DNA of 45,659 nt from an uncultured Verrucomicrobiota bacterium. GTDB taxonomy: Bacteria > Verrucomicrobiota > Verrucomicrobiia > Chthoniobacterales > JACTMZ01. Numbering within the stretch: position 1 is the first letter of the stretch; each line of letters starts with the position of its first letter. The DNA is taken from the NCBI GenBank assembly GCA_903953565.1, contig CAJBKE010000044.1:1-45659 (forward strand), read 5' to 3'. The notes below the pieces were generated by a model that saw nothing but the letters and a program-made list of their open reading frames with translations, was not told where the DNA came from and ran no database searches. Position numbers and translations under genes: made by a program. This document shows, in pieces, positions 3,381 to 45,659 of the stretch.

Positions 3381-4085
3381 TTACACCAACTGATGGCTCT
3401 CCGGCTGGAGGACGACTTCGGCCAGCACGAGATGTGGCGGGGCGTCGATCGCCTGGAGGATGAGGTCGGCGGCGGTCGAGACGGGGATCATTTTGTCGCG
3501 CTGCACGGCCATGTTGATGCCATCCCAGAACGGCGAGTCGACGCCGCCGAGGAAGAAGAGACAAAAGCGAATACCGCTGCGCTGGTATTCTTGGGCGAAG
3601 GTCTTGATGAGTCCGGTCACACCGAACTTGCTCGCGATGTAGGCCGCGGCATTTTTCATCACGGCTTTGCCGAGAATGCCCGGAAGGGTGATGAAAAGTC
3701 CGTGTTTCTGTGCGGCCATGACTTTGCACGCGGCCTGCGCGACGAGGAAGGTGCCGCGCAAGTTGGTGTTCACGATCTTGCTGAACTCGGCGTCGGTTGT
3801 ATCGGCGGCAGGTTTGATCAATCCGATCCCGGCGCAATGGATGACGCAATCGATCCCGCCCATGGATTCGTTGGCTGTGACCACGAGGGCCTCGGCGGCA
3901 TGCGGGGCTGTGAGGTCCGAGGCGATACTTTCGATGGAGGCGGCTCCGGAGCAGGCAGCCGCGACTTCGGCGAGTTTCGATTCGGTGCGTCCGTGGAGAG
4001 TGAGTTTGGCACCGCGGGCCGAGAGGCGGATGGCGACTTCGCGGCCTATGCCGCTGGAGGCGCCGGTGATGAGGAATTTGTCCAT
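3381..4085 (-). CDS. short-chain dehydrogenase/reductase lacking the catalytic Ser
   Basis: A 234-residue Rossmann-fold SDR. It has the N-terminal cofactor motif TGASSGIG (7-14), the HGRTE segment after beta-2 (an Arg there favours NADPH), CAGIG (84-88) in place of NNAG, NTNLRG with Asn108, and the active-site YxxxK as Y149-IAS-K153. The catalytic Ser normally found 13 residues before the Tyr is Gly136 (ITLPGILG), so the usual Ser-Tyr-Lys triad is incomplete. The total length is typical of classical SDRs. The substrate is unknown. It is the next gene downstream of acs on the same strand but is separated from it by a 161-bp structured element, so co-transcription is uncertain. Confidence 0.92.
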   Translation of the reverse strand: MDKFLITGASSGIGREVAIRLSARGAKLTLHGRTESKLAEVAAACSGAASIESIASDLTAPHAAEALVVTANESMGGIDCVIHCAGIGLIKPAADTTDAEFSKIVNTNLRGTFLVAQAACKVMAAQKHGLFITLPGILGKAVMKNAAAYIASKFGVTGLIKTFAQEYQRSGIRFCLFFLGGVDSPFWDGINMAVQRDKMIPVSTAADLILQAIDAPPHLVLAEVVLQPESHQLV

Positions 4086-4126: not shown

Positions 4127-4287
4127 AAAGACAGGCCACGGATAACAGAGGATAAACGGCGAGGATAAGACCTGATCGCGTTGACACGCGATCAGGTCAA
4201 TACGTTCCATAAGACTCTGTTTTGTGCCGGTGTCAGCCGGCGCAAAACTTATCTTCTTTCATCTTCTTCTATCCGTGGCCTGTCTTT
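4127..4287. repeat. 161-bp three-stem palindromic element (MITE-like or structured RNA)
   Basis: The ends are a perfect 18-bp inverted repeat: AAAGACAGGCCACGGATA (4127-4144) and its complement at 4270-4287, the latter ending exactly at the acs stop codon (4288-4290). The arms continue as an imperfect purine/pyrimidine helix (4145-4168 with 4249-4269). Inside are two hairpins: a perfect 13-bp stem GACCTGATCGCGT/ACGCGATCAGGTC (4169-4198, loop TGAC), and a 12-bp stem GTTTTGTGCCGG/CCGGCGCAAAAC (4219-4248) with one T.G pair. Together they make a three-way junction. The non-Watson-Crick positions in the helices are mostly G.T when read on the plus strand, which an RNA from that strand would tolerate. 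It could be a miniature transposon, a processed RNA or an elaborate terminator. Confidence 0.75.
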
Positions 4288-6234
4288 CTACGAATCCTGC
4301 AGTTTGAGTTTCGAGAGGATGCTGAAGTCTTCGAGCGTGGTGGTGTCGCCTTTGACGTCTTTTCCGCTAGCGATTTCTTTGAGGATGCGGCGCATGATTT
4401 TTCCGCTGCGGGTTTTGGGAAGCGCTTCGGCGAAATGGATATCGTCCGGTTTGGCGATGGCGCCGATGGCGTTTCCGACGTGCTTGCGCAATTTGTCGCG
4501 CAATTCAGGGCTGGGCTTTTCGCCCTGTTTCAAGGTGACGAAGGCCACGACGCCTTGACCTTTGATTTCGTCGGGACGTCCGACCACGGCGGCTTCGGCC
4601 ACCGAGTGGTGCGCGACAAGCGCGCTTTCGATTTCCGCGGTGCCGAGGCGATGGCCGGCCACGTTAAGGACGTCGTCGATGCGGCCGACGATCCAGAAAT
4701 ATCCGTCCTTGTCGCGACGGGCACCGTCACCGGTGAAGTAGAATCCCGGGATTTCACTCCAATAGGTTTTCTTATACCGCGCGCGGTCGCCATAGATGGT
4801 GCGGAGCATGGACGGCCACGGTTTGCGCACGACGAGTTTGCCGCCGACGTTGGGTCCGACTTCCTTACCGTTGTCGTCGACGATCGCCGCATCGATGCCG
4901 AAAAACGGCAGCGTGGCCGTGCCAGGCTTGGTCGGCGTGGCGCCGGGGAGCGGGGAAATCATGATGGCGCCGGTTTCTGTCTGCCACCACGTGTCGACAA
5001 TCGGACAGCGTCCGCCGCCGATCTTTTGGTGATACCACATCCAGGCCTCGGGATTGATCGGTTCGCCCACCGTGCCGAGAAGGCGGAGCGAGGAGAGGTT
5101 GTGTTTGTCGACCCATTCGTCGCCCCATTTGATGAAAGCGCGGATGGCAGTGGGCGCGGTGTAGAGAACAGTCACACCGTAGTTCTCGATGATGCGCCAG
5201 AAGCGGTCCGGGTCGGGCCAGTTCGGTGCGCCTTCATACATGAGGCAGGTCGCGCCATTGGCCAGTGGACCGTAAACGAGATAGCTGTGGCCGGTGATCC
5301 AACCGACATCGGCCGTGCACCAATAGATATCGTCCTCGCGCAGGTCAAAAACGTATTTCGTGGTGGCTGCGGTTTGCGTGAGGTAGCCCCCGCTCGTGTG
5401 GAGGATACCCTTGGGTTTTCCGGTCGAGCCGCTGGTGTAGAGGATGAAGAGCGGGTGCTCGCTGTCGTGGTGGACAACAGGACAGTCGGCATTGACGTAT
5501 TCCAGTTCGCGGTGCCACCAGACATCGCGTCCTTCCTGGATGTGGATCTCGTTGTTGGCCCGCTTGAGAACGATGACCTTCTTGATCGTGGTTTCGCCGG
5601 CCAGTGCGGCGTCGACATTGTGTTTGAGCGGGACGATGGCGCCGCGGCGGAATCCGCCGTCGGCCGTGACCACGCAGGTCGCGCCGCAGTCGGCGATGCG
5701 GTCGCGGATACTGTCCGCGCTGAATCCGCCGAAGATAACCGAATGCACGGCGCCGATGCGTGCGCAGGCCAGCATGGCAATGGCGGCTTCGGGGACGAGC
5801 GGCATGTAGATGATGACACGGTCGCCTTTTTTGACGCCGTTGCGTTTTAGAACATTGGCGAAGAGGCAGACTTCGCGGTGGAGCTGTCCGTAGGTCAGCG
5901 TGCGTTTTTCGCCGGGTTCGCCTTCCCAGATGATGGCAGCTTTATTTTTGCGGTTGCTGGTTGCATGGCGGTCGACGCAATTTTCGGCGACATTGATTGT
6001 CCCGCCGTCGAACCAGCGGGCGAAGGGGGCTTTCCATTGCAGGACGGATTTCCACTTGCGGCCCCATTGGAGTTCGGCGGCTTCTTTGGCCCAGAATTTC
6101 TGCGGGTTTTTGACCGAGGCGGCGTGCAGGCGTTTGTAGTCCGCCATGCTTTGGAAGCGCGCTTTTTTGCTGAATTCGCGCGGGGGTTTGATGATCCGCT
6201 TTTCGACGAGGTGGGATTCGATGTTCTGGCTCAT
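4288..6234 (-). CDS. acs: acetyl-CoA synthetase (AMP-forming)
   Basis: A 648-residue cytoplasmic enzyme that joins acetate, ATP and CoA to acetyl-CoA through acetyl-AMP. It has full family length and colinear motifs. The phosphate-binding loop [11 protein letters not shown] lies near residue 265, WWQTETG near 415, and TGDGARRD followed by the hinge [13 protein letters not shown] in the last quarter. The C-terminal [11 protein letters not shown] carries the Lys (about 611) that is acetylated to switch the enzyme off in other bacteria. The N-terminal [18 protein letters not shown] matches the usual start. The neighbours do not add to its role. Confidence 0.98.
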
Positions 6235-24728: not shown

Positions 24729-24797
24729 TGTAGCGGCGGACTATGTCCGCCGGAGCATAAGCGGGGAATGCACCGACGGACATAGTCCGCCGCTACA
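24729..24797. repeat. inverted pair of palindrome family A
   Basis: TGTAGCGGCGGACTATGTCC (24729-24748) with GCCGG, 20 spacer bases, then the inverse ending in CCGCCGCTACA (to 24797). The arms form a 25-bp near-perfect stem. It occupies the gap between two convergent genes. It is the best-preserved copy in the window. Confidence 0.88.
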
Positions 24798-28882: not shown

Positions 28883-28952
28883 GCGCGGGGAGGTTGATAG
28901 AATGCGGGTGTGTACGCCGGCGAGGAGAAAGGGATCCGCAGAGTGCGGAGGA

Positions 28953-29025
28953 TAAGGTGGATCGCGCCCTCCGGGCGCGATGAGGTTTGGGGATTATCGC
29001 GATGGGGACATCGCGATCCACCTTA
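28953..29025. repeat. interspersed palindrome, family B (copy 1)
   Basis: Perfect 14-bp ends TAAGGTGGATCGCG (28953-28966) and CGCGATCCACCTTA (29012-29025). Inside, ATCGCGCCC/GGGCGCGAT and ATCGCGAT/ATCGCGAT can form competing hairpins. The right end overlaps the GNAT gene's stop codon: its TTA (29023-29025) is the TAA read on the minus strand. The second copy is at 36974-37046. Confidence 0.85.
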
Positions 29026-36661: not shown

Positions 36662-36976
36662 ATGGTCCTGCTGGTTTTCTGCACCTTTCCCGACGCGGAC
36701 ACGGCGGCCGCGGTGACCAAGACCTTGGTCGGGGAAAAGCTCGTCGCTTGCGGCACGATCCTGCCCGGTGTCCGTTCGATCTACGAGTGGGAGGGCAAAA
36801 TGGAGGACGCGTCCGAGGTGCTCGTGCTTTTCAAGACAGCCGGCCCGGCTTACGCCAAGCTGGAGAAGCGCCTGCTCAAACTGCATCCCTACGACATGCC
36901 GGAGATCGTGGCCCTCGAAGCCGGCGCCGCCTCGAAAGGCTACGCCGCATGGGTTGCCTCGGCTGTTAATGGATAA
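36662..36976 (+). CDS. cutA: divalent-cation tolerance protein CutA
   Basis: 104 residues, typical length. ACGTILPGVRSIYEWEGKMEDASEVLVLFKT and HPYDMPEIVALEA are the diagnostic blocks. CutA forms stable trimers; its metal role is debated. It starts three bases after the lpxD stop, so it is translated from the same transcript. The TAA stop (36974-36976) is the first three bases of palindrome B. Confidence 0.95.
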   Translation: MVLLVFCTFPDADTAAAVTKTLVGEKLVACGTILPGVRSIYEWEGKMEDASEVLVLFKTAGPAYAKLEKRLLKLHPYDMPEIVALEAGAASKGYAAWVASAVNG

Positions 36977-37046
36977 GGTGGATCGCGCCGTCCTGGCGCG
37001 ATATTTCCTTTGAAGAAATCGCAATCGGGACATCGCGATCCACCTT
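36974..37046. repeat. interspersed palindrome, family B (copy 2)
   Basis: TAAGGTGGATCGCG (36974-36987) and CGCGATCCACCTT (37034-37046). The internal ATCGCGCC/GGCGCGAT hairpin is retained, while the central part differs from copy 1. The left end supplies the cutA stop codon. It fills most of the 103-base gap to trpC. Confidence 0.85.
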
Positions 37047-45603: not shown

Positions 45604-45627
45604 ACTGGATTTCGAGGTAGTGCGAGT

Positions 45628-45659
45628 TGTAGCGGCGGTCTATGACCGTCGGAACACAT
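45628..45659 (+). repeat. interspersed palindrome, family A (cut by window end)
   Basis: TGTAGCGGCGG, TCTATGA, CCGTCGG, 24 bases after the methyltransferase stop. An inverted partner may lie beyond the window edge, as at 24729-24797. Confidence 0.7.

Follow-up and report, generated by a model that had tools for sequence, protein, structure and literature searches.

The window, that is, the whole 45,659-nt stretch of DNA analysed here, carries a 161-bp palindromic element between the genes for acetyl-CoA synthetase (acs) and a short-chain dehydrogenase/reductase (SDR) (Table 1). Its presence was confirmed from the sequence and by a repeat search, and both bear out the perfect 18-bp ends and the imperfect helix that had been described in a sequence-only reading of this DNA: AAAGACAGGCCACGGATA at 4127–4144 pairs perfectly with 4270–4287, and in the repeat search the arms 4127–4156 and 4258–4287 were 87% complementary over 30 nt. 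The two strong hairpins of that reading, one of 13 perfect base pairs and one of 12 bp with a single T.G pair, were recovered by folding, and the palindrome is indeed adjoined by the acs stop codon. The arms consist of GCCACNGAT micro-repeats in inverted orientation, directly inside each of which sits a hairpin with a TGAC or CTGACA loop. The element folds with −92.3 kcal/mol on the plus strand and −86.4 kcal/mol on the minus strand (z = −12.3 and −12.6, respectively; 0 of 200 shuffles as low). The spacer between the hairpins measures 20 bp and holds no gene; the element is therefore classed as a gene-less derivative rather than as a full element.

Table 1. Features of the palindromic element and its flanking genes (positions in the window)
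Feature	Position	Strand	Basis or remark
Whole palindromic element	4127..4287	none	Sequence, folding, repeat search, orthologues in four sister genomes
Left terminal inverted repeat, 18 bp perfect, AAAGACAGGCCACGGATA	4127..4144	+	Sequence, repeat search
Right terminal inverted repeat, 18 bp perfect	4270..4287	-	Sequence, repeat search
Left arm, micro-repeat GCCACGGAT..AGAGGAT..GCGAGGATAAG	4135..4169	+	Alignable with left arm of gene-bearing L219
Hairpin 1, 13 bp perfect, loop TGAC	4169..4198	+	Folding; compensatory T-A to C-G in G008
Spacer between hairpins	4199..4218	none	Site of the GxxExxY gene in the complete relative L219
Hairpin 2, 12 bp with one T.G, loop TGTCAG (reverse complement CTGACA)	4219..4248	-	Folding
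Right arm, reverse complement GCCACGGATAGAAGAAGATGAAAGAAGATAAG	4248..4279	-	Sequence, collected termini
Flanking gene acs, stop codon adjoins element, outside element	4288..6234	-	
Flanking gene SDR, outside element	3381..4085	-	

The palindrome beside acs belongs to a family of some 30 related copies of a small DNA element that is apparently mobile. A sequence search of its own genome (2.86 Mb in 70 contigs) returned 28 further matches, some of which are the two arms of a single copy; many copies are present, one half of what the sequence-only reading had asked of a MITE, the other half being flanking target duplications. The terminal word GCCACGGAT occurs 86 times in this genome as compared with 24 times for the reversed control, and the pattern GCCACGGATN{2,8}GGAT 27 times as compared with none in the control. 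A hairpin with a stem of 8–14 bp follows the arm in 33 of 37 collected termini, 22 of which outscore the best shuffled control. The loops are mostly TGAC, CTGACA or GTGACC and the hairpin foot is GGATAAG or similar, while the stem sequences differ widely; the family includes several full palindromes and several halves. The window element is short, non-coding, multi-copy and bounded by terminal inverted repeats, and in these respects it is MITE-like. At the acs site of G009 (L107) as well as at L009, L018, L021 and L101, ATTTGCCTKCGGCTGTCTCGCAGACTCGGCTGTGGC or a comparable longer end stands in place of the terminal ATCCGTGGC, which may represent either a nested repeat or a second type of end.

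Five of the eleven genomes of the genus, the window's own included, have the element between acs and SDR. It is oriented one way in G000 (the window's genome), G004 and G008, and inverted in G007 and G009; the G000 and G007 copies align with a score of 33 directly and of 121.5 when one is inverted. Since G008, with the forward copy, is the sister of G007, with the inverted copy, in the tree of the flanking genes, at least two flips are implied. G010 and G005 lack the element and contain other palindromic repeats in the acs–SDR gap. When the joined flanks of five loci were used to search for empty sites, unoccupied sites were found, their flanks being too diverged for an exact junction or a target duplication to be read.

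Palindromy of the stems is maintained. In the copies that G000 and G010 have at the L073 site, arms and stems are kept and a T-A pair has become G-C by a double change, while the spacer between the hairpins has diverged. In orthologous hairpins from three sites, with stems entered by hand, 193 pair cells contained four compensatory, five one-sided and four broken changes. Kept palindromy is predicted both by selection and by template-switch correction of quasi-palindromes. The compensatory changes that the sequence-only reading had named as support for an RNA do occur, but they do not establish one, since template-switch correction of palindromes also gives covariation and the copies show no strand bias. 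The same reading had taken the G.T pairs on the plus strand to imply an RNA made from that strand. This strand-specific view is not supported: full copies other than the window element, on which the comparison rests, show no consistent strand preference, and the element is inverted in G007 and G009.

Half-copies also lie in frame within three glycosyltransferase-like ORFs of contig C33 of the same genome (1127–2662, 5177–6313 and 6603–8096 of locus L071). Two of these ORFs were compared with homologues from the genus, which are without the insert; both hold nearly the same peptide, HGLTRIKGRISPGGCADRTG, within a larger insertion. The glycosyltransferase half-copies thus display the in-frame insertion into protein genes that is a trait of the Rickettsia palindromic elements (RPE), the window copy itself being intergenic. 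An integron/attC reading of the clustered copies in C33, which share one orientation, was dropped because several of them lie within genes.

The main result comes from outside the window: within the genus, the GxxExxY genes L031, L209, L219 and L220 adjoin the same arm-plus-hairpin type of end. L219, the sole complete gene-bearing element of the GGAT type, consists of arm, hairpin 1, CAATAGCGCCATG, GxxExxY gene, stop codon, hairpin 2 and arm, an order that the other three show in part. The window element has the plan of L219 minus the gene. The left side of L219 aligns with it over 68 nt, comprising the arm, hairpin 1 and the first spacer bases (score 61; shuffle maximum 23), while the right arms, scoring 32 against 31, are at the edge of chance. 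L031, a TIGR04256 gene in the window's own genome, shares its AAAGACAGGCCACGGAT end with the window copy and aligns with it at a score of 69 against 26; because another, complete palindrome comes after the stop codon of L031, the right end of L031 is ambiguous. The GxxExxY family (PF13366/TIGR04256) shows a D..ExK nuclease motif in the genes of the genus, and D..ExK..Q is conserved in the protein, a pattern expected of a PD-(D/E)XK nuclease, which the family is predicted to be from this motif. A sequence search of the PDB with GxxExxY gave no match to any solved structure. Matches to the terminal motif are most numerous in G000 (27) and G004 (12), both of which contain a GGAT-type GxxExxY gene. 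G003, however, has such a gene yet only 4 matches, and no GGAT-type GxxExxY was found in the assemblies of G009 (9 matches) and G010 (7), so that the tie between the gene and copy number is at most a trend.

Across the phylum, too, GxxExxY nearly always has palindromic ends built of repeats. In a sample of 145 genomes from the phylum, 69 have GxxExxY, and 25 of the 27 genes from loci with enough flank lie between inverted repeats built of a 9–10-nt micro-repeat; at these 25, the inverted repeats outscore every distant control of the same loci (median 41 versus 18). A first regular expression for GGAT ends gave almost no matches at the phylum's GxxExxY genes because every locus has its own letters, and the ends were found by reading the flanks. 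Most of them fit one template, TTWARCCRC-GAN, with a periodicity of 9–10 nt, the letters varying by locus (CACAGAG, CACGGAG, CACGAAA, CGCCAAGG, CATGATT and others), and many of the elements start at or beside a stop codon. With end-letter classes assigned by eye, the letters require 11 changes on the protein tree as compared with a shuffle mean of 21 and a minimum of 17 in 5000 shuffles; once near-duplicates were removed, the values were 12 versus 15.6, with 1 of 5000 shuffles as low. The GGAT-type clade has a support of 0.997. The end letters thus follow the GxxExxY protein tree, although joint inheritance of ends and gene would also produce such a match, which is therefore no proof of recognition. 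As read from the flanks, four of the 27 elements (L179, L181, L187 and L204) lie between gatA and gatB; they belong to different genomes and differ in their end letters, which makes this a recurrent or long-kept site.

Taken together, the multi-copy family, the common arm–hairpin–(gene)–hairpin–arm plan, the association of end type with GxxExxY lineage, the repeated inversion in place, the kept stem pairing and the in-frame halves make it probable (roughly 0.68) that the acs–SDR gap of the window holds a MITE-like, non-autonomous derivative of a palindromic element whose full form has GxxExxY between the hairpins and would be mobilised by this nuclease. Against this, neither a target-site duplication nor an excision nor a fresh insertion was observed. 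The GxxExxY nuclease may recognise the micro-repeat arms and hairpins of its own element, perhaps when these are extruded as hairpins or cruciforms, and might then move gene-bearing copies and, in trans, gene-less ones to new sites, which would often lie just behind stop codons in operons. Flipping could result from recombination or strand switching between near-identical arms. Of the two possibilities that the sequence-only reading had offered, a structured RNA or a transcribed miniature transposable element, the latter is supported by the many copies, the orthologues in sister species, the in-frame copies and the gene-bearing relatives, while an RNA is not established.

Selection on RNA could nevertheless have kept the stems if the folded transcript terminates the acs mRNA, stabilises it or undergoes RNase III cleavage. 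The very stable fold, the compensatory stem changes and the location straight after the acs stop codon would all suit such a 3′-UTR element, as would the other palindromes in the acs–SDR gap of the two element-free sister genomes and the fact that the RNA of the Coxiella 23S rRNA intervening sequence (IVS), with its terminal-repeat stem, is an RNase III substrate (PMC4990558). We nevertheless regard this as unlikely in view of the many copies at unrelated sites, some of them within coding sequence, which have no strand preference, and of an orientation that differs between species; moreover, the element has no Rfam match at the gathering threshold, 5S rRNA being the sole match in a search of the whole window. 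Alternatively, a classical transposase of an unseen DDE transposon or IS may move the copies as ordinary MITEs, with GxxExxY as a passenger that has the same ends (AAAGACAGGCCACGGAT or TTTAGCCACGGAT). Size, inverted ends and copy number are all MITE-like, and no autonomous element is proven active. However, the letters of the ends track the phylogeny of GxxExxY, the gene of L219 lies between the hairpins instead of beside the element, and the same plan recurs in GxxExxY elements with quite different ends; we consider this explanation quite improbable. Least credible, and indeed very improbable, is that a RAYT (Y1 HUH transposase) moves the element as two inverted units paired in the manner of REP/BIME: the paired inverted hairpins, the single half-units and the intergenic location recall such repeats, but the hairpin foot is without a GTAG or CGTC tag, and the window's own genome, which is 95.7% complete, contains no Y1_Tnp (PF01797) gene.

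The nuclease-bearing palindromic element favoured here shares features with several known systems. Like prokaryotic MITEs, including QMITE2 of Coxiella (PMC10969869; PMC5896051), the family has a size of 100–400 bp, terminal inverted repeats, many gene-less copies, a stable fold, and intergenic and 3′-UTR sites. In contrast to them, the gene-bearing relative has a gene that is nuclease-like by its motif and not a transposase, the arms are tandem micro-repeats, two internal hairpins have conserved loops, and no target duplication was seen. RPE (PMC10969869) are likewise palindromic repeats found in frame within protein genes and elsewhere; compared by description, they differ in that a candidate autonomous gene-bearing element is visible here and most copies are intergenic. 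The 23S rRNA intervening sequences that carry the S23p/IVP gene likewise enclose a single small gene in a stem of terminal repeats and have short tandem repeats next to it, which in Coxiella are heptamers beside S23p (PMC4990558), and IVP genes of the present phylum, like GxxExxY, lie between repeat-built ends. Unlike those sequences, the elements described here are found in operons between protein genes (acs and SDR for the window copy) rather than in a 23S rRNA helix, and their gene is GxxExxY. Finally, REP/RAYT systems and RAYT genes with flanking TIRs (‘TIRtrons’; PMC3733652) also pair a dedicated gene, set between inverted repeats, with copies elsewhere that have no gene, but the present family has no Y1 transposase and no GTAG or CGTC tag, and its gene is, by motif, of the PD-(D/E)XK type.

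What is novel in the family of the window element is the nuclease-bearing relative and the micro-repeat ends. A literature search, with most subscription journals outside its coverage, found no paper on the element or its repeats, which could be explained by the fact that MITE finders typically filter out low-complexity ends (PMC10969869). It is tempting to speculate, though we hold this as a tentative view with somewhat less than even odds, that a class of palindromic mobile elements does without a transposase and has GxxExxY proteins as its dedicated nucleases; the ends of such elements would be tandem micro-repeats read by the cognate protein, their copies may be gene-less, like the window element, in-frame coding or flipping, and they would insert behind operon stop codons. 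GxxExxY is a common family without known function, and a testable role follows for it from its position within palindromic elements whose ends match it; the elements also offer a source for the repeat-built palindromes scattered in these genomes. Should the nuclease move the copies, the family would count as a mobile element that has no classical transposase.

Other repeats were encountered in the course of the analysis. Genes for 23S_rRNA_IVP (PF05635, a four-helix bundle), at L034–L040 in the window's own genome and at L241–L269, are likewise enclosed by inverted repeats made up of short tandem units, which are often 7 nt long, and at 25 of 34 IVP loci these repeats score above the distant control. 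A second palindromic repeat family in the window, TGTAGCGGCGG..CCGCCGCTACA at 24729–24797 and 45627–45652, resembles GTAG-type REPs, despite the lack of a Y1 transposase gene in the genome, and similar repeats occupy the acs–SDR gap in G010 and G005. Another two-hairpin palindrome, GGATAAGGTGGATCGCG..CGCGATCCACCTTA, has two copies in the window, at 28950–29024 and 36971–37046. An exact pattern scan of named genomes for the element beside acs gave only four matches (L171–L174), from Planctomycetaceae, Chthoniobacterales, Nitrosomonadales and Gallionella. All are related short palindromes in intergenic DNA, with arms nearly identical to those of the element but no internal hairpins, and their distribution suggests spread between phyla.
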